In this document: positions 16,628 through 60,854 of the stretch, piece after piece | Layout of the letters: the number at the start of each line of letters is the position of its first letter | How positions within the stretch are numbered: the first letter of the stretch is position 1 | Assembly: GCA_947478805.1 (NCBI GenBank) | Contig: CANJXQ010000010.1 | Span: 1-61,630 of the forward strand | Origin: Betaproteobacteria bacterium | Lineage (GTDB): Bacteria > Pseudomonadota > Gammaproteobacteria > Burkholderiales > SG8-39 | Direction: 5' to 3' | DNA: 61,630 nucleotides | Notes under the pieces: model-generated | Databases searched by the model: none | What the model was told of the DNA's origin: nothing | Seen by the model: only the letters and a program-made list of their open reading frames with translations | Program-made: the position numbers and the translations under genes

Positions 16628-16646
16628 CCCCCACCCGGAGACCCGC

Positions 16647-17141
16647 ATGACCAGCAAACCTCTCAACGTCTTGTTCCTGTGTACCGGAAATTCGGCGCGC
16701 AGCATCCTTGCCGAATCCGTCCTGAACCATGTAGGTGCCGGCCGATTTCGCGCCTTCAGCGCGGGCAGCCACCCCAACGGCACGGTCAATCCGTACGCCA
16801 TTGAACTTCTGAAGAAGAACAACCTGCCGGTGGACGGCGTGCGCAGCAAGAGCTGGGATGAGTTCGCCCGACCGGATTCGCCCGTCATGGACTTTGTCTT
16901 CACTGTCTGCGACCAGGCTGCCGGCGAAGTGTGTCCATTCTGGCCCGGGCAACCCATGACCGCGCATTGGGGTGTCGAGGACCCGGCCGGAGTCGAAGGC
17001 GATGATGAGACTAAGCGGCGCGCATTTTTCGCGGCCTACACCCATCTGCGTCGTCGCATAGAAATCTTCACCAACCTTCCGATGGCGACCCTCGATCGCA
17101 TGGGATTGAAGAAGCAACTCGACGACATCGGTCGCTCATGA
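16647..17141 (+). CDS. arsC: Arsenate reductase, low-molecular-weight phosphatase type
   Basis: Reduces As(V) to As(III), using an LMW-phosphatase fold. The 164-residue product has the P-loop C12-TGNSA-R18-S and two more cysteines (C88 and C96 in FTVCDQAAGEVCPFW), the thiol relay of thioredoxin- or mycothiol-type enzymes. ATG at 16647 follows GGAG at 16637-16640. It overlaps the aquaporin gene by 4 bp, linking arsenite production to its exit channel. Confidence 0.92.
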   Translation: MTSKPLNVLFLCTGNSARSILAESVLNHVGAGRFRAFSAGSHPNGTVNPYAIELLKKNNLPVDGVRSKSWDEFARPDSPVMDFVFTVCDQAAGEVCPFWPGQPMTAHWGVEDPAGVEGDDETKRRAFFAAYTHLRRRIEIFTNLPMATLDRMGLKKQLDDIGRS

Positions 17142-17794: not shown

Positions 17795-17814
17795 CGACGC
17801 CGAGCGATTAGCGC

Positions 17815-36818: not shown

Positions 36819-39131
36819 TCAGAGTCCTTTCAGGAACTTCCCGTCCGGGGAAGACTTGGGCACGTTCACGTAGGGTGTTCCGCGATCAAGCGCACGACGA
36901 TCCTTCACCCCGGCCAGTGCCGCCGAGATGCGCACATGCACGTCCGAATTTTCGTATGAACCAGCGAACAAGGCCGAGCCCGCACCCGACGCGCTGAGCA
37001 CCACATCGTCTCCCGAATGCGGTGCGACCGTCACGCTGCGTTCCGTCTTGTTCGCGCCGCCGACGATGGTGCGCGTGGGCATGTTGCCCGTCATCAACAG
37101 GCCATCGGGCGCGCGTTTCGGATTGGGCACTGCGGCGCTCTTGCCATCGGTGGGCTCCAGCGGCTGGTAATTGGTGAGGAAATTGGTGCTGTACGTCGGG
37201 CGGCCGCCATCCTCGATCACCAGCTTGATGTCGGGATCGGAGTCGTCGGGGAACCCGTCGTTGCGGGAGCTGCGATAAGTCGGGAAAGTGGCATCGTTGA
37301 AAGTGCCCACCGCATCCTGCAATGGGCAGGGGCGCGCCGCTTCGCCCATGGTGCCCAGCATGATGGGATATTCCGCCCCGGTAAAGCAGCCTCCCGGCGG
37401 CGTCGGACCTCCTGCGGCAATGGCACCCGGGAGCACCACGCCAATGATGGTTTCCGGCTGCGCATGATCGGCTGTCAATACTGTCAGCGCGTCAGCACGG
37501 CGACCGACGTTGCTTGCCACCCAACCGACGGCCTCATCGAGCTCAAGCGCATCGAACACGACCCGCTCGTACTCCAGGGTGTGGCCCAGCTTGTCGGTTT
37601 GCGATTGCTCGACCATCAAGATCCAGCCCCCGGATTTCCCGGCTAGGTTGTCCAGCACCGACACCGCCTTCTTCACCATCTCGACTTTGGACGGAACGGC
37701 GCGAAAGCAATCGGCGACCGTCGCGCCGCACCCCGTTCCATAGGGCGGGGCAACACTCATGCCCATTTCCGGTGCCGCCACCCCCTTGCCGCGAATGGTT
37801 GCCAGGCCGCGGGCCACCCGGCGATCCAGTGCACCCGGAATATTGTCCGCCCCCAGGCCGCTGGAGGTGGTGCGGAATTCGCCGCTGAAGATGCCGAGCA
37901 AGGGCTTGTTGTCCGGAGCCGCGTTCAGTTCGGAGAGATTGCGCGCCGTTGCATAGCCGCGCGACGGTGCAATGGAGGCGAACAGGTCCACATCGCTGCG
38001 ACCGTCATCGCGATACTGGTAGAACGCCTTCATGTCCGCGTTGGACTTGAGCATCCAGTCCCGCGCGCCCGCCCCCAGGATCACGTCCAGCGGCTGGGTC
38101 AATTCAGCCAAGGCCTTGAACCCGGTCGCCGGTTGCGCCGTGCCGTCCTGGTAGAAACCGAGCATCTGTTGCGCGATTGCAGTGCGTGTTGAGCGCGCGC
38201 GGCTGTGCGCCGCCACCGCCGCAGGCGTTGCGTCCGTGACGAATGCATCGGTCACCACGCCGGTCTTCCAGCCGCGCGTGCGCTTGAGGAATTCCCACAG
38301 CGTTTCGATGCGCGGATTGTCCAGCGCCGTTTCCGGGGTGTTGTCCACGGACACGTTCAACGCATTGTTCGGCTGCTTCATTCCCGTGATGTACGTCGCC
38401 ATGCCGGGCGCGGAATCGGTGATGATGCTGTCGAAGGAAGCGGTATGAACCATGGCGTAGTGATCCATGCGGTCCATATGAAGGCCGCCTTGTGCACGCC
38501 CTTCATGGACCCCCTTTCCGACGATGCGCGCTGCGGTGCGGATCGGCAGGCCCATGCCATCACCGAGGAAGAACACCACGCGATTGACCGCGGCCTTACC
38601 GCCTTTCCCCGCTGCCGGGAATGGCGACGCGGCCACCGGAAATTCGTTGGTAATGCTCCGTTCCAGTCCATCCACGGAGACCACCGCAGTCACCTTGTAA
38701 GTCCCCTCCCGGTCGAACGAGAGGTTGCGCGCCGTGGCGCCAAAGAACAAGGGGGACTGGGGTGTGCCGCTTTCAAGCCCCGCACCCTGAGCTGCGACTT
38801 TCGCCTTGAACGCCGCGGTGACATCGCGTCCGTTGATGGTCACGCTGCGCAACTCCGGCGCCTGCTTGGCCGGAATCTGGGTCTCTACCCGAAGATCGAA
38901 GCGCTGACCGCGAATGAGCTGCGTGCCGGTGGGCGGAGAAATGCGCAGCCCCGTGGAAGGCTCGGCATTGGTCGGAAAGTCCGCCAGCACACGCCCGCCC
39001 TGAACCGGTTGCACGGCATTGGGCTTACCATCTCCTCGGAACGGGGCATCGTCATCCAGGCCGGCCAGGCTGATCATGGGAAGGCTGAGCAATGCAGCGG
39101 CAATGACTGTGTGGCGGAATCGGAAATCCAT
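36819..39131 (-). CDS. Secreted alkaline phosphatase (PhoA superfamily)
   Basis: A periplasmic phosphomonoesterase freeing phosphate from organic esters. The 770-residue precursor has a signal peptide (about 1-23) and an extra Ig-like N-terminal region (about 60-165). The alkaline phosphatase core follows, with FLGDGMG (D191) and the nucleophile motif TDSAPGMATYITG (S240), LTADHAQPET near the C-terminal third and many metal ligands. ATG at 39131 starts the signal peptide; the in-frame extension to 39281 runs through the PHO boxes. It is larger than E. coli PhoA (471). Two PHO-box clusters lie upstream. Confidence 0.9.
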   Translation of the reverse strand: MDFRFRHTVIAAALLSLPMISLAGLDDDAPFRGDGKPNAVQPVQGGRVLADFPTNAEPSTGLRISPPTGTQLIRGQRFDLRVETQIPAKQAPELRSVTINGRDVTAAFKAKVAAQGAGLESGTPQSPLFFGATARNLSFDREGTYKVTAVVSVDGLERSITNEFPVAASPFPAAGKGGKAAVNRVVFFLGDGMGLPIRTAARIVGKGVHEGRAQGGLHMDRMDHYAMVHTASFDSIITDSAPGMATYITGMKQPNNALNVSVDNTPETALDNPRIETLWEFLKRTRGWKTGVVTDAFVTDATPAAVAAHSRARSTRTAIAQQMLGFYQDGTAQPATGFKALAELTQPLDVILGAGARDWMLKSNADMKAFYQYRDDGRSDVDLFASIAPSRGYATARNLSELNAAPDNKPLLGIFSGEFRTTSSGLGADNIPGALDRRVARGLATIRGKGVAAPEMGMSVAPPYGTGCGATVADCFRAVPSKVEMVKKAVSVLDNLAGKSGGWILMVEQSQTDKLGHTLEYERVVFDALELDEAVGWVASNVGRRADALTVLTADHAQPETIIGVVLPGAIAAGGPTPPGGCFTGAEYPIMLGTMGEAARPCPLQDAVGTFNDATFPTYRSSRNDGFPDDSDPDIKLVIEDGGRPTYSTNFLTNYQPLEPTDGKSAAVPNPKRAPDGLLMTGNMPTRTIVGGANKTERSVTVAPHSGDDVVLSASGAGSALFAGSYENSDVHVRISAALAGVKDRRALDRGTPYVNVPKSSPDGKFLKGL

Positions 39132-39190
39132 GGGGGTGGGAACCTCAGAAAGTTCGGGAAGGGTTGCGGGCCACAGTTTCCCGCCTGAAT

Positions 39191-39208
39191 GTGACGCGGA
39201 TGTGACAA
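39191..39208 (-). promoter_or_regulatory. PHO box (proximal) upstream of alkaline phosphatase
   Basis: Minus strand reads TTGTCAC-ATCC-GCGTCAC, two 7-mers spaced 11 nt. It lies 60 bp before the alkaline phosphatase start. Confidence 0.75.
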
Positions 39209-39239
39209 TGCTAGCGGGACAGGCACATGTACACGGCGC

Positions 39240-39268
39240 GTGACAGGTGCGTGACATTCGGATGAAAT
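39240..39268 (-). promoter_or_regulatory. PHO box (distal, triple) upstream of alkaline phosphatase
   Basis: Minus strand has three consecutive 7-mers in exact 11-nt register: ATTTCAT, ATGTCAC, CTGTCAC, separated by CCGA and GCAC. Together with the proximal pair, five half-sites face the phosphatase gene. The same spacer separates it from dgkA on the other side. Confidence 0.85.
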
Positions 39269-39331
39269 GTCGGCCAATCAAAATGACACGCCTGCAATGC
39301 GGTGCTGGTCCACATCAAGGAGCAACGAGGC

Positions 39332-39864: not shown

Positions 39865-41088
39865 GTGTCGATTGATGGACAGAAATCAGTACGCAGGCTT
39901 CCGCAAAAACTGCTGCACAAGGTCGATCAGAAAGTCTTCGACGCCCTTTACTCCCGATCGCTCGTCTACAACACCTGCTGGGAAGACCCTGCAGTTGACC
40001 GCCGAGCGCTGGACCTGCGACCGGCAGACCGCGTCCTGGTCATCACCAGCGCGGGTTGCAATGCGCTGGACTACGCGCTCACCGGTGTTGCGCGTGTTCA
40101 TGCCGTGGACGCCAATCCGCGACAGTCGGCATTGCTGGAATTGAAGCTCGCCGGCATTCGCCGCATCGAATTCGAGGACTATTACGCCTTGTTCGGTGAT
40201 GGCCGCCATAAGGATGCGGAGCGAATCTATCGTCAGGCGCTGCGAATCGACTTGTCGGCTTTCGCCCGCGAATTCTGGGATCGGCGCATCCGCTGGTTCA
40301 GCGACGCCAACCCGCGCTCCAGCTTCTACTTCCACGGCCTGTCCGGCCTCGTGGCCCGCGGCTTCCAGAGCTACCTGAACATGCGGCCAACACTGGCGCA
40401 CGGCGTCACCGCATTGCTGGAAACCCGCACTCTGGATGAACAACGCGAAACCTACGATGCGCTCGTCCAGCCGCACTTGTGGGGACGGGGCCTGAACTGG
40501 GTGCTGTCGCGCGGCGTCACCATGAGCATGCTGGGCGTGCCGCGGCCGCAAAAACTGGAGGTCGAGCGCCAGCACCGCGACGGCGTTGCCGGCTTCGTGC
40601 GTGAAGCCATCGAATACGTATTTCGCGACCTGCCTCTGCGCTCGAACTACTTCTGGAAGCTCTACCTTCGAGGACGGTACGACAGGGAATGCTGCCCCGA
40701 ATACCTGAAACCCGCCAATTTCACCGCCCTCAAGGCGGGACTTGCAGATAGCGTGAAGGTCCACACCTGTACCGTGACGGAATTCCTGCGCGCATCGCGC
40801 GATCCGATCACGCGCTTTGTGCTGCTCGACCACATGGACTGGATGAGTTCCTATCTCCCGCGGGAACTGCACGAGGAATGGCAGGCCATCCTGGAGCGGG
40901 CCAGCCCTGGGGCGCGCATCATCCTGCGCAGCGCTCACCTGCGCCCGGCTTACCTGGACACGGTGTGCATCGGTGGCAGGCCACTGCGCGAGATCCTGAA
41001 ATTCCACGACGGTCTCGCCTGGGCGCTGCAACCATTGGATCGCGTGCACACCTATGCCGGCTTTCACATCGCGGATGTTCCTGCATGA
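39865..41088 (+). CDS. btaA: BtaA-like AdoMet:diacylglycerol 3-amino-3-carboxypropyltransferase
   Basis: First enzyme of betaine lipid (DGTS) synthesis: it transfers the aminocarboxypropyl group of AdoMet to diacylglycerol. The 407-residue product is a DUF3419 protein with the N-terminal YNTCWEDPAVDRRAL and the AdoMet region VLVITSAGCNALDYALTG-VARVHAVDANPRQ. LDHMDWMSSYLP near the C-terminal third is also characteristic. Start is GTG at 39865. It overlaps the next gene by 4 bp, and a PHO box lies upstream. Together with BtaB it replaces phospholipid when phosphate is scarce. Assignment rests on family, pairing and regulation. Confidence 0.88.
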   Translation: MSIDGQKSVRRLPQKLLHKVDQKVFDALYSRSLVYNTCWEDPAVDRRALDLRPADRVLVITSAGCNALDYALTGVARVHAVDANPRQSALLELKLAGIRRIEFEDYYALFGDGRHKDAERIYRQALRIDLSAFAREFWDRRIRWFSDANPRSSFYFHGLSGLVARGFQSYLNMRPTLAHGVTALLETRTLDEQRETYDALVQPHLWGRGLNWVLSRGVTMSMLGVPRPQKLEVERQHRDGVAGFVREAIEYVFRDLPLRSNYFWKLYLRGRYDRECCPEYLKPANFTALKAGLADSVKVHTCTVTEFLRASRDPITRFVLLDHMDWMSSYLPRELHEEWQAILERASPGARIILRSAHLRPAYLDTVCIGGRPLREILKFHDGLAWALQPLDRVHTYAGFHIADVPA

Positions 41089-41825
41089 TGCTGCTCCAGG
41101 ACAGCCGCGTGCTGTTGCACCTGCTGCGCGGGCAGCGAGCGATGGGCAATCACGCCGAACGCCTGGAACGGTTCTACGCCCCGCAGGCGGCGCACTACGA
41201 CCGCTTTCGCGAGCGCCTGCTGCATGGCCGACGCGAACTGGTGGAACGATTGAATCCCTCCCCGGGCGACAGCGTGGTCGAACTCGGTGGCGGCACCGGC
41301 CGCAACCTGGAGTTTTTCGGGGCGAGACTGCTGTCCCTGTCACGCTTCGAACTCGTGGACCTGTGTCCTGCGCTGCTGGCCCAGGCCAAGCAGCGCTCCG
41401 AGCGGTGGCCTCACCTGGTGCGCCTTGTGCAGGCAGACGCGACGACTTATCGACCGAACGTTATAGGCGGCTACGGCGTCGATCGCGTTTACTTCTCGTA
41501 TTCGCTCACCATGATTCCCGAGTGGCGCCGTGCCATCAACAACGCCATCCGCATGCTGCGCCCGGGTGGCCTGCTGGGCGTGGTCGATTTCTACGTGTCC
41601 GGCGCGGAGCCGCTGCCCAATCGAGCCCACCATGGATGGGCGACACGTCGCTTCTGGCCGCGCTGGTTCGCGCACGATGGCGTGCGGCTGAGTGCCGACC
41701 ACCTTCCGGAACTGATGCGACGCACCGACCCCGTGCATTGCGAAGAACGCACGGCACCCGTTCCCTACCTACCAGGACTGCGAGTTCCCTACTACCTCTA
41801 TGTCGGACGCAAGCGTCAGCGCTAA
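41085..41825 (+). CDS. btaB: BtaB-like AdoMet-dependent N-methyltransferase
   Basis: Predicted to add three methyl groups to the amine of diacylglyceryl-homoserine, giving DGTS. The 246-residue class I methyltransferase has motif I VVELGGGTGRNLEFFG, motif II FELVDLCPALL and post-motif VDRVYFSYSLTMIPEWRRAI, typical of BtaB/UbiE-like enzymes. Its ATG overlaps the btaA stop (ATGA). The next gene overlaps its end by 26 bp. A generic methyltransferase is the alternative, but coupling to btaA makes BtaB likely. Confidence 0.85.
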   Translation: MMLLQDSRVLLHLLRGQRAMGNHAERLERFYAPQAAHYDRFRERLLHGRRELVERLNPSPGDSVVELGGGTGRNLEFFGARLLSLSRFELVDLCPALLAQAKQRSERWPHLVRLVQADATTYRPNVIGGYGVDRVYFSYSLTMIPEWRRAINNAIRMLRPGGLLGVVDFYVSGAEPLPNRAHHGWATRRFWPRWFAHDGVRLSADHLPELMRRTDPVHCEERTAPVPYLPGLRVPYYLYVGRKRQR

Positions 41826-42780
41826 TCTATCCACCGATCCCAATCCGGCGCACGCGGCGGGCCGGCGGGTAAGGGCAGTGTTTCTCTCCGATATCCACCT
41901 GGGAACCCGGGCCTGCCAGGCGGAGCGACTGCTGGAATTCCTGCGTCACATCGAGACCGACTACATCTACCTGCTGGGCGACATCATCGATTTCTGGTCG
42001 CTGTCGCGCGGCATCCACTGGCCGGCGCCCCACAACACCTTCGTCCAGAAGATGCTCAAGCGCGCGCGCCACGGCGTGCACGTGACATTCGTGCCAGGCA
42101 ATCACGACGAAGCGCTGCGCGAGTACGTCGGCACCGGCTTTGGCGACATCCAGGTCAAGCGCGAGGCGGTGCACGTATCGGCGGATGGCCGCCGCTACCT
42201 CCTCATCCACGGCGACGAATTCGACCAGATCACGCGCCACCATCGCTGGCTGGCGCTGGCGGGCGACGTTTCCTACACGCTGCTGGTGCGACTGAACATC
42301 CTCCTGTCCTGGATCCGGCGCAAGCTGCACAAGCCCGGCTACTGGTCACTCGCAGGCTATGCCAAACGCAAGGTCAAGGGCGCGCTCGATTTCATTTATG
42401 GATTTGAAGAATCGGTCGCGCACCACGCCCGTCACCGCGGCATGGACGGGGTCATCTGCGGTCATATCCACAGCGCGGTGGTCAAGGACATCGACGGTGT
42501 GCGCTACATAAACTGTGGCGACTGGGTGGACAGCTGCTCGGCCATTCTCGAGCATCTGGATGGGCGGATCGAGCTGGTGCACTGGGAACAGGATCCGTCA
42601 CTTGTTCCGGCCGGGATTCCAGCAGAGATCGAAGCACCCATCGGCGTACCCGGCACCCCGCTCTACGGAACATCTGCCCCGAACGTTGCCCCGGCCCCTT
42701 CCCGGCCTGCAACATCCTTGCCTCCAAAGAACTCATGGCCCATCCAGCCCGTATCCACCGCATCACGCAACCGGCTGTGA
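41800..42780 (+). CDS. plcP: PlcP-like metallophosphoesterase (phospholipid headgroup hydrolase)
   Basis: Calcineurin-type phosphoesterase of the LpxH-related clade to which the phosphate-starvation phospholipase C PlcP of Sinorhizobium belongs. The 326-residue protein has all metal motifs: LSDIHLGTRACQAE near residue 30, LLGDIIDFWSLSRG, VPGNHDEALREY, LIHGDEFDQITRH and CGHIHSAVV. It is longer than LpxH (about 240). The C-terminal 50 residues are Pro-rich. PlcP would convert phospholipid to diacylglycerol, the substrate of BtaA in the same operon. A true LpxH role is the alternative. Confidence 0.78.
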   Translation: MSDASVSANLSTDPNPAHAAGRRVRAVFLSDIHLGTRACQAERLLEFLRHIETDYIYLLGDIIDFWSLSRGIHWPAPHNTFVQKMLKRARHGVHVTFVPGNHDEALREYVGTGFGDIQVKREAVHVSADGRRYLLIHGDEFDQITRHHRWLALAGDVSYTLLVRLNILLSWIRRKLHKPGYWSLAGYAKRKVKGALDFIYGFEESVAHHARHRGMDGVICGHIHSAVVKDIDGVRYINCGDWVDSCSAILEHLDGRIELVHWEQDPSLVPAGIPAEIEAPIGVPGTPLYGTSAPNVAPAPSRPATSLPPKNSWPIQPVSTASRNRL

Positions 42781-42787
42781 GACCGGC

Positions 42788-43810
42788 CTATTCGTCACGC
42801 TCGCGGAACACCAGCCACGCCGCGAACAGGCTGAACGTCGCCACAATCGCAACGACGATCCAGAAGCCCTCAGGATCCTGTCCAAAGGGGACTCCTCCGA
42901 CGTTCATGCCAAACAGTCCGGCGATGACATTGATGGGCAACGCAAGCACCGTCACTGCAGTGAGCACGAAAAGCGTGCGCCCGGTGCGCTCGTTGATGCT
43001 GGCAGCAATCTCCTCCTGAAGCAGCTTGATTCGTTCCTGCAGCGTGGTCATGTCGCGCAGGATCAGCGAGAACTCCTCCGCCGATTGCCTGAGCTGCGAT
43101 GCATCCTCTTCGGCCACCCATTGCGGCGGCCGATTCAGCAACCGAAACAAGGCGGCCGGCTCCGGCGCCAGCAATCGCTGCAATCGCACCAGGTCCCGAC
43201 GCAGTACCCCAAGGCTGGCACGCTTGGTGTCCAGGCGGCCGGCAAGCAGCCGGTCCTCGATGGAGTCGACTTTCTTCACGGTCTTGCGGACAATTCCCAG
43301 CAGCACGTCGCCCTGGTCGTGAAGCAAGTGGATGAACAGTGACAAGGGGGAGGAAAATGTTTCACCTGACTTCACCGCGGTGCGCAGCCTGTCTATCGAG
43401 CGTGAGGGCAGGTTTCTCGCCGTCACCAGCGTCTTGGGATCGATGCTGATCCAGACCGTCGCCACCTGAGAGGATTCGCTGAACGGGAAGTCATAGATGA
43501 CGTCATTCAGCACCGCCACCAGTGTCTCGGATGCGTACTCGATGCGCGTCGAGGGCCCGCTTTCGCTCAGTGCACCGAAGTACTCCTCGGAAAGCTCGAA
43601 GTGCTCCTCCATCCACCGGGCAGTCCCGGCATTGGCCGCATTGAAATGAAACCAGCCGAACGCGGCCGGCTTTTCTCCGTCGTCGATCGCCCGCAAGCAC
43701 GCCGCGGCCTGCTCCGAATCGACTGCCCGGCCCACGCCGTCGTCGGCAAACGAGAATCCGCTGATCAGTCCTGACGGGTCTGAACCGTAGCTTTCTGCGC
43801 TGACACTCAA
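42788..43810 (-). CDS. zntB: CorA/ZntB-family divalent cation transporter
   Basis: A 340-residue CorA-superfamily channel: large cytoplasmic domain, long helix, then two C-terminal transmembrane helices (about residues 280-305 and 312-335) flanking the signature GMN in IAGLFGMNVGGVPFG. The N-GG-P context resembles ZntB, which imports zinc, more than CorA. TTG at 43810 was chosen because GGAGG precedes it by 4 nt and the frame upstream runs into a PHO box. It is convergent with the plcP-like gene (7 bp). Zinc supply to metallo-phosphatases is a plausible role. Confidence 0.8.
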   Translation of the reverse strand: MSVSAESYGSDPSGLISGFSFADDGVGRAVDSEQAAACLRAIDDGEKPAAFGWFHFNAANAGTARWMEEHFELSEEYFGALSESGPSTRIEYASETLVAVLNDVIYDFPFSESSQVATVWISIDPKTLVTARNLPSRSIDRLRTAVKSGETFSSPLSLFIHLLHDQGDVLLGIVRKTVKKVDSIEDRLLAGRLDTKRASLGVLRRDLVRLQRLLAPEPAALFRLLNRPPQWVAEEDASQLRQSAEEFSLILRDMTTLQERIKLLQEEIAASINERTGRTLFVLTAVTVLALPINVIAGLFGMNVGGVPFGQDPEGFWIVVAIVATFSLFAAWLVFRERDE

Positions 43811-43867
43811 TCTTCCTCCGCGATGCAATGAGACTCCGGGAAATCGACCAGCACTGGAAACGGCGCA

Positions 43868-43885
43868 GTAACAGGCATGTGACAA
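43868..43885 (-). promoter_or_regulatory. PHO box upstream of the CorA/ZntB gene
   Basis: Minus strand TTGTCAC-ATGC-CTGTTAC, 11-nt register, 58 bp before the chosen start codon. Its existence also argues against the longer start at 43885. Confidence 0.75.
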
Positions 43886-44021
43886 ATTTACTTCGCCCGT
43901 ATTGCAACCACCTGAAAGCCCGGGGGCGAAAGAGACATTGCCCGCAAATGTTCCGCCGCACGATAACTCCCCGGGAACGCGCCGCTATGGAGGCGTTGTC
44001 TGGAGTGGAGCCGTTCTCCGG

Positions 44022-44039
44022 TGTCACAGCCGCGTAACC
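44022..44039 (+). promoter_or_regulatory. PHO box upstream of the phytase-like gene
   Basis: GTGTCAC-AGCC-GCGTAAC, 11-nt register, 44 bp before the start and oriented toward it. Confidence 0.7.
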
Positions 44040-44082
44040 CGCCAGGACTAATTTACGGCTTTTCATTGAATGAGAACCCGCG

Positions 44083-45438
44083 ATGATCCGTACTGTTCCG
44101 CTTGCTTGCGTAGCCCTGTCCGTCGCCTGTCTTTCGACCGGCGCCCTGTCCCAGCAGTCCTTTCCGGCCACCCTTGCCGGACACGCCATCCTTCCAGCCG
44201 AAAGCTTTCTCAGCGCTCCGACTGATGCACCGCCAGACTTGAAGCTCAGCGGCAAATACACGACGCTCAAGCGGGTGGACGCCCCGGGCACCGTCATGGG
44301 CAAATCCGCGGAACGCGATACGGGCGTCAAGTTGCCTTTCAAGGGCCAGCCGAGACAAGGCCATTCGGGCATCAAGACCATGGCGGATGGCACGTTCTGG
44401 GTGCTCACCGACAACGGCTTTGGGGCGAGAAACAACTCTGCCGACTCCATGCTCTACCTCAACCAGTACCGCATCGACTGGGACAAGGGGGCATTCAAAC
44501 CGCTGAAGACGATCTTCCTGCACGACCCTGACAGGAAGGTACCGTTTCGCATCGTTCACGAAGGAACCAAGAAACGCTACCTGACCGGCGCCGACTTCGA
44601 TACCGAAGGCTTCCAGTTCATCGGCAATCACGTGTGGATCGGCGACGAATTCGGGCCCTATGTAATCAAGGCTGACAAATCGGGCAAGGTGCTCGCCGTG
44701 TTCGAGACGCTCGCGGACGGCAAGCCGGTGCGCTCACCCGACCACTGGGCGGTGCAATCGCCGGGCACGCCGACCGGCACCTTCCCGAACGTCAACCTGC
44801 GGCGCTCCAAGGGCTTCGAGGGATTCGCCTCATCCAGGGACGGCAAGTTCATCTACGGCCTGCTCGAAGGCCCCCTATGGGACGCCGAGAAGAAGGACTG
44901 GGAAAAAGTCGACGGCAAGGAAGCGTCCAGAATCCTTGAATTCGATGTGGCCAGCGAAAAATGGACGGGGCGCTTCTGGCACTACGTGTTCGAGGCCAAT
45001 GGCAACGCGATCGGCGATTTCAACATGATCGACGCAACCACAGGCCTCATCATCGAGCGTGACAACGGCGAGGGCACCGCGGACAAGGCCTGCCCGGCTG
45101 GCACGCGCGGCGACAACTGCTTCCCCGATCTAGCACGGTTCAAGCGTGTCTACAAGGTGGAGTTCAGCCCGGAAACTTCGGGAAAGCCGGCGCGCAAGAT
45201 CGGCTACATCGATCTCATGCAGATCCAGGACCCGGCGAAGAAGGCACGCAAACCCCTGAACGACGGCGTCTATACCTTCCCGTTCTTTACCATCGAGAAC
45301 GTGGATATCGTCGACGAGCGACACATCATTGTCGGCAACGACAACAACCTGCCGTTTTCATCCAGCCGGGATCCCAACAAGGCTGACGACAACGAAATGA
45401 TGCTGCTCGAAGTCGAAGCGTTCCTGAAGGCCCGCTGA
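44083..45438 (+). CDS. Secreted phytase-like esterase (PF13449-type)
   Basis: A 451-residue exported protein with a signal peptide ending near GALSQQSF (residue about 24). The mature part matches the esterase-like-activity-of-phytase family: GFGARNNSADSMLYLNQYRI, TGADFDTEGFQFIGNHVWIGDEFGP, SKGFEGFASSRDGKFIYGLLEGP and ENVDIVDERHIIVGNDNNLP, a beta-propeller pattern. The preceding PHO box suggests it releases phosphate from organic sources outside the cell. Substrate is not deducible. Confidence 0.8.
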   Translation: MIRTVPLACVALSVACLSTGALSQQSFPATLAGHAILPAESFLSAPTDAPPDLKLSGKYTTLKRVDAPGTVMGKSAERDTGVKLPFKGQPRQGHSGIKTMADGTFWVLTDNGFGARNNSADSMLYLNQYRIDWDKGAFKPLKTIFLHDPDRKVPFRIVHEGTKKRYLTGADFDTEGFQFIGNHVWIGDEFGPYVIKADKSGKVLAVFETLADGKPVRSPDHWAVQSPGTPTGTFPNVNLRRSKGFEGFASSRDGKFIYGLLEGPLWDAEKKDWEKVDGKEASRILEFDVASEKWTGRFWHYVFEANGNAIGDFNMIDATTGLIIERDNGEGTADKACPAGTRGDNCFPDLARFKRVYKVEFSPETSGKPARKIGYIDLMQIQDPAKKARKPLNDGVYTFPFFTIENVDIVDERHIIVGNDNNLPFSSSRDPNKADDNEMMLLEVEAFLKAR

Positions 45439-52738: not shown

Positions 52739-53908
52739 TCAATGCAAGGCAAGATGCCGCGACACATGGCGTGCCTTCCCGCGCACGATCGTCGCGACGA
52801 CGCGCGGCATCTCGGGCTGCGAATCATCCACCAGGATGAGGTCCGCGCGCTGGCCGGCGGCAATCTCGCCGCGATCCCGAAGACCCGCCGCCCGCGCCGG
52901 GTTGCGCGACACCAGGCGCCAAGCCTCGGCCAGGGGCGCGATGCCCGCATTCGCCAACAGGAAAGGCGCGGCCAGCAGGGCCGGATAGAAATAATCGGAT
53001 GCGAGCACGGTGCAGATGCCCTCGCCGACCATGTCGGCGGCTCGCACGCCATTGATGTGGCTGCCGCCGCGCACGACATTGGGCGCCCCCATGATCACTG
53101 CGTTGTCGAGTTCTCGCGCCGCGAGCGCCGCTTCGCGCCCCATGGGGAACTCCGCGATGCGGCATCCCAATGACTGGTAGCGCCGGCGATCCTCCGGCGA
53201 CGTGTCGTCGTGCGAGGCCATGGGCACATCACGCAACGAAGCGGCCTTGGAGAGTCGCTGCACCGCAGCCGGCACCTCATCGCCGCGCTCGCGTGACGCC
53301 TCAAGGATCTCGCGAAAACGCGACACGCTGACGCCGGCCCGCTCCGCGTACTTGGCGATTCGACCATGATCGTCCAGCTTGCGAGCGATGCCCGGCAGGT
53401 GATCGTTGAAGGCCAGGAAATCGACGTGTCCAGACTGCAGCCAGCCAATGACCTCCTCCACTGCCTCGAGATTGTGGTTCTCGAAGCGCAGGTGGACACG
53501 ATTATCGGCGCCGAACAGGTCCTCGGTTCGCGCGCAGGCAATGTGCTGCACCAGCGCTCGCGCAGTATCGATGCCGCGCAACCCGCCTTCCCATGAACAG
53601 GTGATGCCGTGAAATGCAGTCGTGATCCCATTGGAGAGCAGCTGTCGATCGGTATCGGCCATGGCCATCGCCAGCGGAAACTGCGCCTCCGGCCGCGGCG
53701 CCATCTGGCGCTCGAAGGCATCGCCGTGAATATCAACAATGCCCGGAAGCACGAGCATCCCGTTTGCATTGAGGCTGCCCCGGGCTTGCCCCCCGCCAAT
53801 GTCGGCAATGTGACCACCGTCGAACCGGATGTCGGTGACTGTGAAACTGCCATCCGCAAGCAACACCCTGCCACCAGCCACTCCTGTTATTTCCGACACG
53901 CCGCTCAT
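52739..53908 (-). CDS. phnM: Alpha-D-ribose 1-methylphosphonate 5-triphosphate diphosphatase
   Basis: C-P lyase pathway amidohydrolase that removes pyrophosphate from the triphosphate intermediate. The 389-residue product has VLPGIVDIHGDAFERQMAPRP (HGD metal site), FHGITCSWEGG, DFLAFNDHLPG, MASHDDTSPE and HINGVRAADM. It is the first gene of a phnM-DUF1045 operon, separate from the phnGHI operon 6 kb away. A PHO box lies 32 bp before its ATG. Confidence 0.94.
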   Translation of the reverse strand: MSGVSEITGVAGGRVLLADGSFTVTDIRFDGGHIADIGGGQARGSLNANGMLVLPGIVDIHGDAFERQMAPRPEAQFPLAMAMADTDRQLLSNGITTAFHGITCSWEGGLRGIDTARALVQHIACARTEDLFGADNRVHLRFENHNLEAVEEVIGWLQSGHVDFLAFNDHLPGIARKLDDHGRIAKYAERAGVSVSRFREILEASRERGDEVPAAVQRLSKAASLRDVPMASHDDTSPEDRRRYQSLGCRIAEFPMGREAALAARELDNAVIMGAPNVVRGGSHINGVRAADMVGEGICTVLASDYFYPALLAAPFLLANAGIAPLAEAWRLVSRNPARAAGLRDRGEIAAGQRADLILVDDSQPEMPRVVATIVRGKARHVSRHLALH

Positions 53909-54128: not shown

Positions 54129-57020
54129 TTATTTGGCGGCCTCGCGGGCAAGTGTACCCCGCGGCGAGGCCATGACAAGACGCTGCACGACATCGCAGAA
54201 ATCTTCCACAGCGTCTGCCTTGAAAATGAGCTCCCTCACGCCAGCCGCTCCCGCCTGGCACTGCAAGTCCTCATCGATAAACCCCGATGCCACTGCGACC
54301 GGAAGGTCGGCACGTATGGCCCTCACTTCGCGCGCAATATCCAGCCCCGACATCCCCGGCATGTTGTAGTCGGTAACCACCAGCCGGAATGCGTGAGCGT
54401 TCGCGCGCAATGCCGCGAGCGCCGCCGCCTGGTCGACGTAGGAGCAGACACTGTAGCCTCGACGTTCTAGCAGGCGTTTGACAAGCGACACCATGGATTC
54501 GTCATCGTCGAGGTACAGGATGCGCTCCCCTGATCCCCGTACCTCGCTCGCCTTGCCTTCCTCAGGACACGTTTCATCCGCAGCACTCTGGGCAACAGGA
54601 AAATAGATTACAAAGCTGGCCCCTTGGCCCGGTTCGCTCTTGGCTTCGATCACGCCCTCATGACCCTCGACGATGCCGTGGACTACCGCGAGGCCCAGCC
54701 CAGTTCCTTCGTCTACCGCCTTGGTGGTAAAGAAGGGCTCGAAAATTCGCGCCAAAACCGCCTTGTCGATGCCGGGGCCCGTGTCCGAAACCCGCACGCG
54801 CACGGCGCGCCCTGGCCGTACCGCGCACATTGCACGCAGTCCCGAATGCGCCTCGGCCATCGCTTGATCGAGCATCACGGAATACAGGCAGATGTCGATT
54901 CGGCCGGGCTGGCTTCCGATCGCCTGCATGGCGTTTGTGGCCAGATTGATGATGACCTGCTGAATCTGGGTCGCATCGGCCAGCACGGCGGGCACATCAG
55001 ATGCGCACTGGATATTGAGGCTCAGGCGCGCAGGCAGCGTGGCGCGCAGCAAGCGCCCCGCCTCCTCGACAATCGGGTTGAGGGTGATGGGCTTTCGAAC
55101 CGCCGGCTGCCTTCTGCTGAAGGAGAGTATCTGGCGCACCAGTTCGCGCCCGCGCCGGGCAGCTTTGGTGATCTCCTCCAGGCTTTCCTGGGCCTGCGCA
55201 TTGTCTGGCACGTCCTGTCGCACGAGTTCGGCGTTACCCAGTACCGTGGCAATGATGTTGTTGAAGTCGTGCGCAATGCCCCCGGCCAGTGTTCCCACCG
55301 CCTGCATTTTCTGTGATTCACGCAACTGCGCCTCCAGAGAGGCCTGGCGCTCCTCGGCGCGTTTGCGGGGGGTGATGTTCTCGTGACAGATCACCACGCC
55401 GGGCCACGATCCCTGCAGGGGAGTAACCCACAGGCGGAACCATCGCTGCTCCCTGGGAGAATGGCAGGGATAGTCAAGAATGTATTCGCGTCGCTCGCCG
55501 CCAAGTACGCCAATGATTCCGCTCCAGGCAGCCGACGCCTCTTCGCCCAAGGGTGCCCCCGCCGCCGGTTGGCATACATCAAGGTAGTTCACCCCCACGG
55601 GATTCACGACCGTCTCCGATGCGCCGTTCTCCCGGGCGAACTCCCGCCAGGCGCTGTTGACCGCCATGATCACGCCGTTCTGTTCAAGCACTGCGACCTG
55701 CTCGCTCAGCGAGTTGAGCACGGAAACATTGAAGGCCTCACTTTCGCGAAGGCGCCTCTCGCTCATGTCACGCATGTGCTCGAGGCGCTTGCGCTCGGAA
55801 ATGTCCTGGAGAATCGTGGAGACGCCGACAATGTTCCCGGCGGAATCCTTGATCGGGGAATGACTCGACAGCACCGGGATCACCTGTCCGTCCTTGGTCC
55901 GGCGTTCCGACTCCCTTGTCGTTTTTTCCCCGCGCAGCACGCTTTCGTTGATCTCTTTCAGCCGGCTCTTCCGACCTCCCACAAGAACGAAGTGGGACGC
56001 CTGGCCAATCGCCTCTGCGGCGGAATAGCCGAGCATCTTCTCCGCACCGGCGTTCCAGGTCAATATCCTCCCGTCGAGGGAGCGGCTGTAGATGGCATCG
56101 TTGGAGTTTTCGACGATGGCTCCAAGCTGGGCGCGCGAGGCCTCGGCATCAATGCTCTCGGTGATGTCCTGGCAGTAGCCGACCCATTCGCGAACGCTTC
56201 CTTGCGCCCCGAAGACCGGCGCGCCGCGCACCCTCATGTGCCGCCACTCGCCGTCGAAACGGCGCATTCGAACGTTGACTTCGTAGGTCACGCGATTGGC
56301 GACCGCGCGCGACACGATTCCCTCCACCTTCGCGCGATCCTGCGGATGGACCGCTTTGCCCCAGGATCCGCCGGTGATCTCGGCACAGGATTGCCCGGTG
56401 AAGTTACGCCAGCTGAGGTTGTCGCCGATGCCCTCCCCGCCTGCATCGACGTTCCAGACCACTTCGGCGGAGGCCGCCACCAACGTGCGAAAGCGTTCCT
56501 CGCTCTCCCTCAGGGCGGACACGTTGCGCTCGGTGATCATCCTGAGCAGCTCATTGGCATTGCCGATACCCAGGTAACGACCCTGGTCGGTAATCAGGAA
56601 TCCGCTGCCGATGCCCTGGCCGGAGCTGTCGAGGATTATCTGCGCCACCTCCATCGCGGCACGGTCGTGCTCGACCATGATCGCATCACCGCTCTCGAAC
56701 TCGTCCATTCCCAGCAGCTCGATGATGCTTCGCGAACCGTAGATATCCAGCGCGTAGAGCCTGCCGAAGAATTCGATGTACTGCTTGCGCTCCACCAATG
56801 CGACCGGAATGTTCGAGGCGTCGACGACCGGCAGCGCGAAGAGACTGCGGTCACCGAGAAATCGGGCCAGTGCGCTCTTGCAACGATCGGTGGTTCTGAT
56901 TGGCGGGAGGAAATGGGCCAGCTGTCCGACAGTGGATGCGTGAAGCGCCAGGCATTCCCTCATGTTGGCGGAACGACTGTCACGCCCGTTGCGCTGGGCG
57001 GAGAAGGGAATGATCGACAT
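54129..57020 (-). CDS. Hybrid sensor histidine kinase (CBS-like, PAS x3, HisKA, HATPase, REC)
   Basis: A 963-residue cytoplasmic kinase. A CBS-like module at about 25-165 precedes three PAS domains (about 170-290, 295-410, 420-555), HisKA with the phospho-acceptor H584 in LAGGIAHDFNNII, HATPase with the N-box NLATNAMQAIG and G-boxes, and a C-terminal receiver (about 840-955) whose acceptor Asp is in VVTDYNMPGM. No transmembrane helix is visible, so the signal is probably internal. A PHO box precedes it. The CBS-like module resembles that of the EAL-CBS-GGDEF neighbour. Output partner unknown. Confidence 0.87.
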   Translation of the reverse strand: MSIIPFSAQRNGRDSRSANMRECLALHASTVGQLAHFLPPIRTTDRCKSALARFLGDRSLFALPVVDASNIPVALVERKQYIEFFGRLYALDIYGSRSIIELLGMDEFESGDAIMVEHDRAAMEVAQIILDSSGQGIGSGFLITDQGRYLGIGNANELLRMITERNVSALRESEERFRTLVAASAEVVWNVDAGGEGIGDNLSWRNFTGQSCAEITGGSWGKAVHPQDRAKVEGIVSRAVANRVTYEVNVRMRRFDGEWRHMRVRGAPVFGAQGSVREWVGYCQDITESIDAEASRAQLGAIVENSNDAIYSRSLDGRILTWNAGAEKMLGYSAAEAIGQASHFVLVGGRKSRLKEINESVLRGEKTTRESERRTKDGQVIPVLSSHSPIKDSAGNIVGVSTILQDISERKRLEHMRDMSERRLRESEAFNVSVLNSLSEQVAVLEQNGVIMAVNSAWREFARENGASETVVNPVGVNYLDVCQPAAGAPLGEEASAAWSGIIGVLGGERREYILDYPCHSPREQRWFRLWVTPLQGSWPGVVICHENITPRKRAEERQASLEAQLRESQKMQAVGTLAGGIAHDFNNIIATVLGNAELVRQDVPDNAQAQESLEEITKAARRGRELVRQILSFSRRQPAVRKPITLNPIVEEAGRLLRATLPARLSLNIQCASDVPAVLADATQIQQVIINLATNAMQAIGSQPGRIDICLYSVMLDQAMAEAHSGLRAMCAVRPGRAVRVRVSDTGPGIDKAVLARIFEPFFTTKAVDEGTGLGLAVVHGIVEGHEGVIEAKSEPGQGASFVIYFPVAQSAADETCPEEGKASEVRGSGERILYLDDDESMVSLVKRLLERRGYSVCSYVDQAAALAALRANAHAFRLVVTDYNMPGMSGLDIAREVRAIRADLPVAVASGFIDEDLQCQAGAAGVRELIFKADAVEDFCDVVQRLVMASPRGTLAREAAK

Positions 57021-57144
57021 CGATGATTCGGAGGGCCAATTGATCAGGATGCGGGCGAGGACAGGCGCTGGAGGCCGTCTGGAGAAATGCCTGGGTCAAT
57101 ACTTCCCGGCGGCATTGGGCGTTGCATGATATTGCTTGCCCTAT

Positions 57145-57162
57145 GTGACATTACGGTGAAAG
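57145..57162 (-). promoter_or_regulatory. PHO box upstream of the hybrid histidine kinase
   Basis: Minus strand CTTTCAC-CGTA-ATGTCAC, 11-nt register, about 125 bp before the kinase start. Confidence 0.75.
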
Positions 57163-57228
57163 TTGATCGCATGCCACGCCAAATCTCCTCTCCCGCATAA
57201 GCGCCGCCGCAAGCGAGTGCGCGATGAA

Positions 57229-59034
57229 TTACGCGGTTTGCCACTCCGACGACTGAAGTTCAGCGCCCGCCCTGCGCTGCGCAACGTGAAAGCCGCCCTT
57301 TGCGAGCTTGGCCATCCGCTTGGCATCCGTTGCGGCCGTGGCAACGTCCTCCGGGCGATGAAAGTCCCCTGCCTCCACCCTTACCGCGCCGCCGAATACC
57401 GTGGTGAGCGGAAAAGTGCATGGATTGCCGCGCCGGTCCTCGGATGTGATGTAGCCGCAGTCGCGCGCTTCCTGGTCGAAGAGATCGAGTGCCCGCCCAT
57501 TGAAGTCGGAGAGAATGCCCATGCAGCGCTCTGCCCAGTCCTCGCTCTGGAACAGCACCACGAAGTCGTCGCCGCCCACATGCCCGACAAAGTCATGCTG
57601 CGGATCACAAAAGGAAACGAGCGTGGCGGCGAGCATTCTGATCATCTCGTCGCCGCGCCAGAAGCCGTACACATCATTGAAGGGCTTGAAATTGGCCAGA
57701 TCGAAATAGCACGCGGCAAAGCGCGAGCGGCGGGCGAGCAGTCGGCCGATGTGCGTGCAGATTGGAATATTTCCCGGCAACGAAGTGAGCGGGTTGGCGT
57801 GGCGCGCGGCCTCGATGCGGAACTCCGTCAGCGCGCGGACCACCTGTTCGCCCGTGGCGAGGCCGGCGTAGTGGCCGACCTGGCTGAGAATGAAACCATC
57901 GACGAGGTAGCGCTGGTCTTCCCCTTTCATCAGTTCGAATACCGATTCTACCGGCGTGCCGCACTCCACGACCAGTGGGGAATCGTTCATGAAAAGGGTG
58001 CACGGCCTGCGGCCGAAGAGCTCGCGCTGATAAGGCCGGCCCAGCGCGTTCTGGAAGGAAAGGCGGTTGATGAGCCCCACCGGTTTTCCATCAGATACGA
58101 TTGCAATGGCGTGGACGTTGCCGAGCTTGTTTAGGATCCGCTCAAGTTCCACCACGGTGGACGTCGCCTCCACGGCGTCCCGCTTGATGAGGAAACGCTC
58201 GGCGATCGCACCGCCGGCATGGGCCGCTCTGGCTTCAGGCAACACCGCGATCTTGGAGGATTTCAGGGCCTTGGATACCAGCGTGGGAATGCAGTTGCTC
58301 GGTTCGGCGGCCGGCCGGCCGATGAGGTAGCCCTGGCCGAACTTGACGCCCATGTCGCGCACCACAGCCAGCTCTGCCGCCTCTTCGATGCCCTCGGCGA
58401 TGAGGGCGGTCTGGAAGCGTTCCGCGACGTACAGGTACACACGCAGTATCTCCAGGTGCTCGTTGCTCTTGTGGATGCCCTGCACGAAGTGCTTGTCTAC
58501 CTTCACATAGTCGGGCTTGAGCAGGGTCCATTGCTTGAGACTTGAGTGTCCGTCGCCGAAGTCGTCGAGCGCCAGCCCCACCCCCAGCGCGCGCATCGGT
58601 GCAAGCGCTGCCTTGAGTTCGACATCGGAGGCCACGCGCACATGCTCTGTCAGTTCAATCACGATTCGGTTTGGCAACAGGCCGGTCCGGCGGGCGAACT
58701 GCATGCGGTCGCCCAATTCGCCCGGCTTGAGGCTGAGCAGCGCCGCCGCACTCAGGTTGATGAAGATCTTCCCAGGCATGTTTCTGCGCGCGAATTCGCG
58801 CATTGCGGCAAAACAACAATGCAACTCCAGCTCCAATTCGCAGCCCTCGGCCCGCGCGGCGGCAAACAGCTGGTCGGGCCGCTCGAACGGCGAACCCTCG
58901 GGACCGCGAATAAGGCTCTCGTAGGCGAAGACTTCGGCGCTTTGCAGGCTGCAAATCGGCTGGAAGAACGGCCTCAGGCTGCGCGCCGCCATCAGGCCGC
59001 GCGTACCAAACTCAATGGGACCTGCAGACTTCAT
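57229..59034 (-). CDS. EAL-CBS-GGDEF c-di-GMP signalling protein
   Basis: A 601-residue protein with an N-terminal EAL phosphodiesterase domain (about 15-255), a central CBS-like pair (about 275-395) and a C-terminal GGDEF domain (about 430-600). EAL catalytic residues look complete: Y-E39-SLIR, INLSA, ELTEH, LALDDFGDG, YVKVDKHFV and IAEGIEEAAE. The cyclase signature reads GGDDF, not GGDEF, so cyclase activity may be weak or lost. ATG at 59034 is preceded by AGGAG; the frame extends 23 residues further. It follows the 7-TM gene by about 140 bp. Confidence 0.9.
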   Translation of the reverse strand: MKSAGPIEFGTRGLMAARSLRPFFQPICSLQSAEVFAYESLIRGPEGSPFERPDQLFAAARAEGCELELELHCCFAAMREFARRNMPGKIFINLSAAALLSLKPGELGDRMQFARRTGLLPNRIVIELTEHVRVASDVELKAALAPMRALGVGLALDDFGDGHSSLKQWTLLKPDYVKVDKHFVQGIHKSNEHLEILRVYLYVAERFQTALIAEGIEEAAELAVVRDMGVKFGQGYLIGRPAAEPSNCIPTLVSKALKSSKIAVLPEARAAHAGGAIAERFLIKRDAVEATSTVVELERILNKLGNVHAIAIVSDGKPVGLINRLSFQNALGRPYQRELFGRRPCTLFMNDSPLVVECGTPVESVFELMKGEDQRYLVDGFILSQVGHYAGLATGEQVVRALTEFRIEAARHANPLTSLPGNIPICTHIGRLLARRSRFAACYFDLANFKPFNDVYGFWRGDEMIRMLAATLVSFCDPQHDFVGHVGGDDFVVLFQSEDWAERCMGILSDFNGRALDLFDQEARDCGYITSEDRRGNPCTFPLTTVFGGAVRVEAGDFHRPEDVATAATDAKRMAKLAKGGFHVAQRRAGAELQSSEWQTA

Positions 59035-59176
59035 GGCATGCTCCTCGACGATCATTGAAAGGGCTGCGGCCACGAACGCAAGGTATTTGCACCGTGGCTG
59101 CAACGGCTATCGGCAAGGGTGCGCGTCGATTAAGAGGTCAAAATAAATAAAACCATGTAATCCAATCGTCACATTG

Positions 59177-60028
59177 TCATGATTGGAGCAGATTGACGGG
59201 CCGACATTTTTTCCGCGACTGAACGAACTCCCATTTGGGTACATGCGCCAGCGCGATGCTGAGCCACACTGCTGCGCTGAAGTACAGCGACATCCATACG
59301 ACTTCATCCTTCCAGTCTTCCCAGCGGTGGGAGACGGTGCGACGCTCCATCGCGTCCAGCGCGCCTTGCGCGATCGTCATGTATTGGCGCCCAGCCGATT
59401 CGTCGGCAAGCCAGCGCGAGAAGTACATCGGGACATCGACCAGAAACATGAATCCGATATAGGCGACGCCGGCAGCGCATATGATGGCAAGCACGGGACG
59501 CAGCCTGGCGTTGCTTCGCGGCCACACGGAAGCAAGGCTCACGATCAGCATCGTCGCGCTGACCGCCCACAGGGTTTCCTCGAACACGTGGCCCAGATTG
59601 GATGTGGTCAGCACCGAATACCAGGAGCAGACTTCGGCCAGGGCGATCAGCGGGACCATGGCTGTCGACGTGGCCCTTCCCAGGGAGCTGTCGGCTTCAC
59701 GCGAAAGCTCCCGCAGCAGCAGCGCCCATTGCATGGCGAAGCACAGCTCGGCAATCGTCGCCACCGAGCGGCCTACGATGATGCTGGCGAGCCAGGTATC
59801 GACCATCACGATGCGCGGCACATCGAAAACCGGCAGCACCGAGCGGAATGCGCAGCTGAACACATAGCCCGCGGACAACAGGACCTGCAGTCGGCGCGCC
59901 GCATAGACTTCGCGGGTCAGTGCCGGCTTTCTTCTCTTGAGTGCGGCCGCGGAAAGCGACCAGGCGAACACATTGAGCGCGCTCACCGCGCACAGGGACA
60001 ACCACCAGAAAAGGACATTGGATGACAT
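59177..60028 (-). CDS. Unknown seven-helix membrane protein, predicted Pho-regulated
   Basis: A 283-residue protein with about seven hydrophobic segments (near residues 5-28, 46-68, 77-108, 120-143, 150-172, 180-207 and 245-268). I do not recognise the family. The loop MERRTVSHRWEDWKDE before the last helix is charged and could face the cytoplasm. It has the strongest PHO-box array in the window 44 bp upstream, and may share a transcript with the c-di-GMP enzyme downstream. A receptor or transporter role is possible but unsupported. Confidence 0.75.
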   Translation of the reverse strand: MSSNVLFWWLSLCAVSALNVFAWSLSAAALKRRKPALTREVYAARRLQVLLSAGYVFSCAFRSVLPVFDVPRIVMVDTWLASIIVGRSVATIAELCFAMQWALLLRELSREADSSLGRATSTAMVPLIALAEVCSWYSVLTTSNLGHVFEETLWAVSATMLIVSLASVWPRSNARLRPVLAIICAAGVAYIGFMFLVDVPMYFSRWLADESAGRQYMTIAQGALDAMERRTVSHRWEDWKDEVVWMSLYFSAAVWLSIALAHVPKWEFVQSRKKCRPVNLLQS

Positions 60029-60071
60029 GAGCCTGTCATGCTGACATGCTATCGGCCATCATCCAAATCAT

Positions 60072-60111
60072 GTGATGGTTTGATGACCGTTACGTGACCG
60101 TTTCGTGACAG
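60072..60111 (-). promoter_or_regulatory. Four-fold PHO box upstream of the 7-TM gene
   Basis: Minus strand shows four 7-mers in perfect 11-nt register: CTGTCAC, CGGTCAC, CGGTCAT, CCATCAC, separated by GAAA, GTAA and CAAA. It ends 44 bp before the start codon. The longest PHO array in the window. Confidence 0.9.
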
Positions 60112-60231
60112 TGGAATTTTCGTGCGGAACGTAACGACGCCTCCCGGCGCCTGCATGTCAACACGTGACAGCGGTCATTCCTGGCTCCGCCACTCGTTGT
60201 ACCAGGTCACCCCCCATCATCATTTCCGCTC

Positions 60232-60249
60232 CTGTAAGAAAAGCGTCAC
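60232..60249 (+). promoter_or_regulatory. PHO box upstream of phnG
   Basis: CTGTAAG-AAAA-GCGTCAC, 11-nt register, oriented toward the C-P lyase operon and 131 bp before phnG. Confidence 0.75.
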
Positions 60250-60380
60250 ACGAGCGTGCTTTACTCCGATGCTTCCGGGCGCAGTTCAATTTATCCGGTT
60301 ATCTATTCGACCCAGTCGATGAGAAGGAAGCAACAGAGCAATGCGAGCGCTGCGATCGTTGAACGACCGGGTGGGGCACT

Positions 60381-60854
60381 GTGACTGAACGGGCCCCAGT
60401 CCCAGCGGCAGCAATGCCGGAGCGACGCCACTGGATGGCCATCCTTGCCAGGGCCAGCCGCGAGGAGTTGGAAGCCGCGTGGTCGTCGCTGGAAAGCCCC
60501 CCCGCCTATCAATGGCTGCGTCGCCCCGAGACCGGGCTGGCGATGGTGAGGGCACGGGCCGGCGGCAGCGGTGCCAAGTTCAATCTCGGAGAAGCAAGCA
60601 TCACGCGCTGCGCACTGCGCACCGCCGATGCGAAGACCGGCATCGCCTACATCCTCGGGCGCGACCGGCGGCGCGCGGAACTGGCGGCGCTGTTCGACGC
60701 CCTGCTCCAGGATGAGTCAACACGCCCGCGAATCGAGCGCGACGTTGTATTTCCACTGGCTGCGCGACAGGTCGCCGCAAGCGCCAACGCAAGCCGCAAG
60801 GCCGCCGCCACGCGGGTCGATTTCTACACCATGGTCAGGGGCGAGAATCCATGA
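60381..60854 (+). CDS. phnG: Phosphonate C-P lyase complex subunit PhnG
   Basis: Subunit of the PhnGHIJ core that cleaves C-P bonds of alkylphosphonates. The 157-residue product shows RHWMAILARASREELEAAW, ETGLAMVRARAGGSGAKFNLGEASITRC and the end AATRVDFYTMVRGENP, all typical. Start is GTG at 60381 after GGTGGGG; ATG at 60414 is possible. phnH begins 35 bp after its stop. Confidence 0.93.
   Translation: MTERAPVPAAAMPERRHWMAILARASREELEAAWSSLESPPAYQWLRRPETGLAMVRARAGGSGAKFNLGEASITRCALRTADAKTGIAYILGRDRRRAELAALFDALLQDESTRPRIERDVVFPLAARQVAASANASRKAAATRVDFYTMVRGENP

Follow-up and report, generated by a model that had tools for sequence, protein, structure and literature searches.

Gene for a seven-helix membrane protein from an undescribed family, behind a PHO-type array in a betaproteobacterial phosphorus region

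Many genes of unknown function serve phosphorus-limited bacteria. The window analysed here, a stretch of 61,630 nucleotides from a betaproteobacterium, contains a gene that may be of this kind. It encodes a membrane protein, lies behind an array of PHO-type sites and is divergent from the C-P lyase genes. The locus raises the question of what this protein does, and of whether its link to phosphate belongs to the whole family or to this lineage.

The gene, its array and the surrounding region

The first-pass annotation described a 283-residue membrane protein with four consecutive 7-mers upstream and a c-di-GMP enzyme and a hybrid kinase next to it. The open reading frame is confirmed on the minus strand with an ATG start, the four 7-mers are present as described, and the two signalling genes lie downstream on the same strand. 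The region contains the following features.

59177-60028, minus strand: seven-helix membrane protein gene, ATG start, 283 aa, undescribed family
60029-60047, minus strand: type A element (ATGTCAGCATGACAGGCTC), directly abutting the ATG of the seven-helix gene
60072-60111, minus strand: PHO-type array of four 7-mers at 11-nt spacing, pointing towards the seven-helix gene
60381-60854, plus strand: phnG, divergent neighbour, first of the C-P lyase genes
57229-59064, minus strand: EAL-CBS-GGDEF protein, outside the conserved setting
54129-57020, minus strand: PAS hybrid histidine kinase with receiver, outside the conserved setting
52739-53908, minus strand: phnM, 5 kb off in the window and adjoining the seven-helix gene in the nearest relative, L024
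51945-52742, minus strand: DUF1045 gene, overlapping the end of phnM

As read from its genes, the window is a phosphorus region. Its further content includes phoU domains and PhoA-type, DUF3419, metallophosphoesterase and phytase-like genes. The last three lie in a row at 39865-45438 and likely form a lipid-remodelling and phosphorus set; we take the DUF3419 gene to be BtaA-like and the metallophosphoesterase to be PlcP-like. Other ORFs of the window are presumably PstSCAB, Ppk, Ppx, PhnCDE, PlcP and BtaA, names that we gave from reading the translations. At 16533-19026, a relative of LMWP-type arsenate reductases (55% to the protein at locus L063) is followed by ORFs that, judged by eye, look like those of an aquaporin-like protein and an MFS protein.

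The array is composed of the units CTGTCAC-N4-CGGTCAC-N4-CGGTCAT-N4-CCATCAC in exact 11-nt register, and its near end is 44 nt from the ATG of the seven-helix gene. The PHO unit consensus is CTGTCAY. Scored against this consensus, with a maximum of 28 for four units and 21 for three, the array reaches 24/28. It is the top four-unit array of the whole window, in agreement with its earlier description as the strongest, and exceeds the four-unit maxima of 18 to 20 found in 30 simulated windows of equal length (first-order Markov). The next independent four-unit array (39229-39268, minus strand) scores 21/28. It falls inside the 5' part of the annotated PhoA-type ORF (36819-39281, minus strand), the true start of which is probably further downstream. 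A promoter scan over 56800-60400 found no sigma-70-type site, and terminator-like sites in this interval are at chance level only. On the simplest reading, 60072-60111 would be the promoter of a left-hand phn transcript in which the seven-helix gene is first.

The closest relative, at locus L024, encodes a protein that is 88% identical. L024 keeps the array (17/21 in three units, 21/28 in four), and nearly all bases between the array and the ATG match those of the window; the mid-intergenic region has diverged. The seven-helix gene of L024 adjoins phnM. The EAL-CBS-GGDEF and kinase genes are absent, with 5.3 kb of the window lying opposite 158 bases of L024, so this pair was either inserted in the window or lost in L024.

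Family membership and predicted fold

The first-pass annotation recognised no family for the protein and set clear membership of a known one unrelated to phosphate against its own reading. The profile search agrees with it: Pfam and NCBIfam give zero models at E up to 1 for the 283-aa protein. The Pfam domain search revealed no signalling or cytoplasmic output domain, and no catalytic motif of any known enzyme was recognised in the protein. A PDB profile search gave a best E of 0.032 for a partial match to a metal transporter over 56 profile positions. A literature search, which covers text and cannot query sequences, found no description of the family; the family is undescribed.

Relatives are encoded at 310 loci in genome_contigs. 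The best 80 of the 310 were analysed and are mostly betaproteobacterial by record label; two of these labels, Bordetella parapertussis and Klebsiella pneumoniae, come from MAGs and are not trustworthy. Of 399 genomes from the same order, 8 encode a relative, counting the window's own genome. A phylum-wide draw gives 11 of 398, again with the own genome, and nine of these belong to genus g260 of another class. The family extends to a second proteobacterial class and is patchily distributed. Plasmid and phage records searched for relatives gave no match. An alignment of 21 divergent members has 37 invariant columns, which include R62, D69, R72, R87, E94, E132, E150, D198, Y202, and R205. When 54 members were scanned singly against Pfam, only scattered matches appeared, including one member with SnoaL-like domains and one with 7TMR-DISM_7TM (E 0.0028). 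The SnoaL-matching member is presumably L093, the seven-helix ORF of which (L093:8001-9323) continues to 441 residues.

Structure prediction, which the first-pass annotation had proposed, also yields the seven helices claimed there. The AlphaFold2 model, based on 54 sequences, is confident (mean pLDDT 92.4, pTM 0.87) and is composed of seven long transmembrane helices; short strands separate helix 2 from helix 3 and also precede helix 7. The presumed inner segments contain a mean of 2.56, 1.70, 2.74, and 2.93 (tail) Lys+Arg, and the presumed outer loops 1.06, 0.09, and 2.93. The last outer loop is 27 residues long and has a mean of 2.28 acidic residues. This distribution favours an N-terminus outside, though not cleanly. 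Given such a topology, the invariant charges of the model would sit near the periplasmic ends of the helices.

The resemblance of the model to microbial rhodopsins (PF01036) appears to be one of arrangement only. VIA-align superimposes 202 residues on bacteriorhodopsin 4fpd at 3.4 Å with a Z of 14.2. All 50 matches listed are microbial rhodopsins, with Z of 13 to 14 for the likeness, and the two have their seven helices in a similar register, with a pair of short strands between the second and third. However, by the tool's own warning, Z 14 is also reached by helical models without kinship. Foldseek against the PDB places microbial rhodopsins and GPCRs in its first rows at E of about 0.05 to 0.3, with nothing at E 0.001 or better. 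Likewise, hhalign against 13 rhodopsins gives probabilities of 0.3% and 0.9% with a shallow partner alignment. The retinal lysine is invariant in the rhodopsins compared, whereas the seven-helix family has no conserved lysine in helix 7 (residues 236-260, either family alignment) and no Pfam or profile match. Rhodopsin kinship is not supported by these comparisons, and a distant rhodopsin relative in which the fold outlasted the retinal lysine is very improbable.

Two further families were compared by hhalign with shallow alignments and rejected, namely HlyIII/PAQR (PF03006; 0.2% against 6 sequences) and 7TMR-DISM (PF07695; 1.4%). The latter has seven helices as well and accounts for the single Pfam match mentioned above, but the seven-helix protein has no further domain attached that could serve as output.

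A closer likeness is found among predicted viral proteins (BFVD). The Megaviridae environmental protein A0A5J6VIR5, an uncharacterised protein of 267 residues, is matched by Foldseek at E 3.7e-14 with 27% identity. The two models superimpose with TM-scores of 0.81/0.86 and an rmsd of 2.3 Å, and the viral protein is likely a true homologue. A second, weaker relative is present among the predicted viral proteins. Scans of viral_contigs did not find the DNA of A0A5J6VIR5; one scan returned unrelated proteins.

Neighbours and upstream elements of the homologues

The survey of neighbours, also proposed at first pass, set the 80 homologue loci (1.15 Mb) against 0.55 Mb of control sequence, in 39 stretches drawn from the genomes of the loci; several controls are short and most begin at a contig end. 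A phosphorus gene is present in 30/80 loci, which are mutually related, and in 0/39 controls (Fisher 7e-7; 18 query proteins, of which PhoA, PhoD, and CYTH-CHAD were picked after inspecting the loci). The 15 window-derived queries alone give 21/80 versus 0/39 (9e-5). Some of the matches are weak, at 33 to 34% for PhnM and 32 to 33% for CYTH-CHAD. Matches of phn type occur in 6/80 loci (L068 by a 34% PhnM alone) and 0/39 controls. PhoD alone is found in 6/80 loci, and 50 of these genomes have about one to two copies of it each. A quick family tree of 79 rows with long branches requires a minimum of 17 switches in phosphorus state, or 13 with the 15 queries, so the phosphorus neighbourhood is not one inherited synteny. 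Relatives of LMWP-type arsenate reductases are present in 11/80 loci and 1/39 controls. Among the neighbours listed for the nine g260 loci, neither phosphorus nor lipid genes are evident.

A lipid-type cluster recurs near the seven-helix gene in L018, L021, L026, L027, and other loci. It comprises two glycosyltransferases, an Mpo1-like protein, a class III aminotransferase, a PS decarboxylase and an LplT-like MFS protein, LplT being our label for an MFS_1 match. With a query set picked after inspecting the loci, Mpo1-like genes (a match slightly under the Pfam cut-off) are found in 22/80 loci, glycosyltransferase 4 in 15/80, LplT-like MFS in 12/80, aminotransferase III in 10/80, and PS decarboxylase in 9/80, each with 0/39 in controls. 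At least one of the five is present in 23/80 loci. Phosphorus and lipid-type neighbours, singly or together, occur at 36/80 loci; the other 44/80 have neither, which counts against the role proposed below. Metallophosphoesterases that we presume to be PlcP-like lie near 9/80 homologues; Pfam assigns them only to Metallophos. PlcP-type lipid remodelling takes place at low phosphorus (PMC4796936). The seven-helix family shares the neighbourhood of such enzymes but is absent from the pathway as laid out in the portion of that paper cited here.

The link to c-di-GMP and kinase signalling that the first-pass annotation implied does not carry over to the homologues. By tblastn, relatives of the EAL/GGDEF protein are present in 3/80 loci versus 0/39 controls, and relatives of the kinase in 7/80 versus 2/39. 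By blastp at E 1e-5, the counts are 3/80 (L035, L069, and L081) and 9/80. Both genes are also missing from L024, and a conserved c-di-GMP linkage as a rule is rejected. Two loci are exceptions: an EAL gene and a kinase gene adjoin the seven-helix copy of L081, and that of L021 has, about 2.4 kb away, a CBS-GGDEF relative with a broken reading frame and 34 to 40% identity.

By the refuting condition set at first pass, a lack of conserved PHO boxes before the homologues, the PHO claim holds for this lineage, in which L024 keeps the array, and fails for the family as a whole. A sense array of three units scoring at least 16/21 precedes only 3/79 homologues (L024, L027, and L100), a count that speaks against the proposed explanation. 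The same array precedes 18/867 other genes of the homologue loci and 0/432 control genes (P 7e-4). The neighbourhoods are thus rich in PHO arrays, whereas the seven-helix gene itself rarely has one. At a threshold of 15, the counts are 3/79 homologues, 52/867 neighbour genes, and 4/432 control genes. Family-wide PHO boxes were also sought with a two-unit score (14 positions) and rejected: a score of at least 11 is found before 5/79 homologues and 77/868 other genes, which is no enrichment before the homologues. In genus g260 (L127-L135), 9/9 upstream regions contain antisense PHO-like units scoring 16 to 18 of 21, mostly as two well-matching half-sites, spaced by 22 nt, around a poorly matching middle unit. 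Other genes reach the same score in 0/116 cases antisense and 2/116 sense.

Two other upstream elements were first read by eye from the upstream regions and then scanned. The type A consensus (ATGTCAATATGACAGGATG) abuts the start codon in 21/79 homologues at 12/19 or better, and the site of the window scores 15/19. At 15/19 or better, 10/10 locus sites abut a seven-helix start and none occurs in controls. A type A match of 14/19 is also located at 14230-14248, near the presumed pstS start, where it overlaps a PHO-like site (14238-14255).

The type B element is the palindrome ATAAACG-TATATA-CGTTTAT. It has 37 sites at 17/22 or better in the loci and none in controls. Thirty-five of the 37, in 26 loci, are located upstream of either a seven-helix gene or a small RHH-like one, at most 450 bases away; the remaining two precede a PhoD-type and a CYTH-CHAD gene. 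In 16/80 loci (L099:7730-7981 and 15 others) and in no control, the RHH-like gene precedes the seven-helix gene at a distance of 11 to 129 nt. Its product has no Pfam match, so that RHH is a reading of the sequence. Type B is a putative operator common to the RHH-like and seven-helix genes and nearly confined to both. No RHH-like gene was found in the window's own genome.

Proposed role and alternatives

The analysis supports a membrane protein with an accessory role in phosphorus scarcity that is most likely PHO-driven in this lineage. This role is based on the array and the phnM adjacency of L024, the phosphorus and lipid-type neighbours, the PHO arrays before other genes of the loci, the ten invariant residues and the number of changes on the tree. 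The protein would be located in the inner membrane with seven helices and its N-terminus outside. PhoB would most likely turn the gene on at low phosphate in this lineage, as the first of a phn transcript of the seven-helix gene, phnM, and the DUF1045 gene, as in the close relative. Its job would be accessory, either in phosphorus scavenging or in a phosphorus-sparing change of membrane lipids. The invariant charges in the periplasmic half of the helices could line a pocket that accommodates the head group of a lipid or an organophosphate. We infer this substrate, and also an enzyme rather than a carrier; the lean towards an enzyme comes from the lipid neighbours together with the one-sided charged residues. 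The full proposal, a PhoB-induced enzyme embedded in the membrane that handles lipids or organophosphates of the outer leaflet as an accessory to phosphorus scavenging or sparing, is tentative, and we place it somewhat short of an even chance.

The same Arg, Glu, and Asp residues within the seven helices could instead form a gated path for phosphate, phosphonate, an arsenical or a lipid in a protein induced by phosphorus shortage. A transporter would fit the phn transport and phosphorus genes close by and the excess of arsenate reductase relatives at the loci. However, the protein matches no transporter family, and its invariant charges occupy one half of the membrane rather than spanning it, which makes this reading doubtful. 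In a different reading, the array serves the phn operon alone and the seven-helix protein has a job unrelated to phosphorus, usually under operators of its own. Most homologues indeed have no sense PHO array, and the operator is almost confined to the seven-helix gene and the RHH-like gene upstream of it. Phosphorus genes at 30/80 loci on scattered branches argue against such a passenger, as do the two type B sites outside this gene pair, and we consider it unlikely.

A receptor that senses periplasmic phosphate, phosphonate or the state of the membrane, and signals via a partner such as the EAL protein or the kinase, would account for the rhodopsin- or GPCR-like arrangement of the helices, the two signalling genes downstream in the window, the pair adjoining the L081 copy and the lone 7TMR-DISM_7TM match. 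The protein lacks a cytoplasmic output domain, though, and the rarity of EAL/GGDEF and kinase relatives at the loci together with the low 7TMR-DISM profile probability renders a receptor distinctly unlikely. Quite improbable as a whole is a broader reading, in which bacteria and algal-type giant viruses share a new retinal-free rhodopsin-like family that acts on outer-leaflet lipids or organophosphates at low phosphorus and, over part of its range, is paired with an RHH-type repressor of its own.

With the proposed accessory role, the seven-helix family is a testable candidate for an unknown phosphorus-saving step. In scattered lineages, this strongly conserved membrane family has C-P lyase, phosphatase, polyphosphate, and lipid genes as neighbours. 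By record label, close relatives are present in culturable strains of Zoogloea, Paucibacter, Rhodoferax, and Pelomonas, with Zoogloea dura and Rhodoferax lacus among the carriers.

The role of the EAL gene of the window is a question separate from that of the seven-helix protein. In Pseudomonas fluorescens, the c-di-GMP phosphodiesterase RapA is controlled by a PHO box (PMC3032545). The EAL gene of the window is likewise downstream of a PHO array, and by analogy with RapA the gene may matter in this strain. RapA bears no relation to the seven-helix protein, and the EAL gene is a candidate target of the array. It is possible that 57229-59064 encodes a RapA-like low-phosphate phosphodiesterase of this strain.
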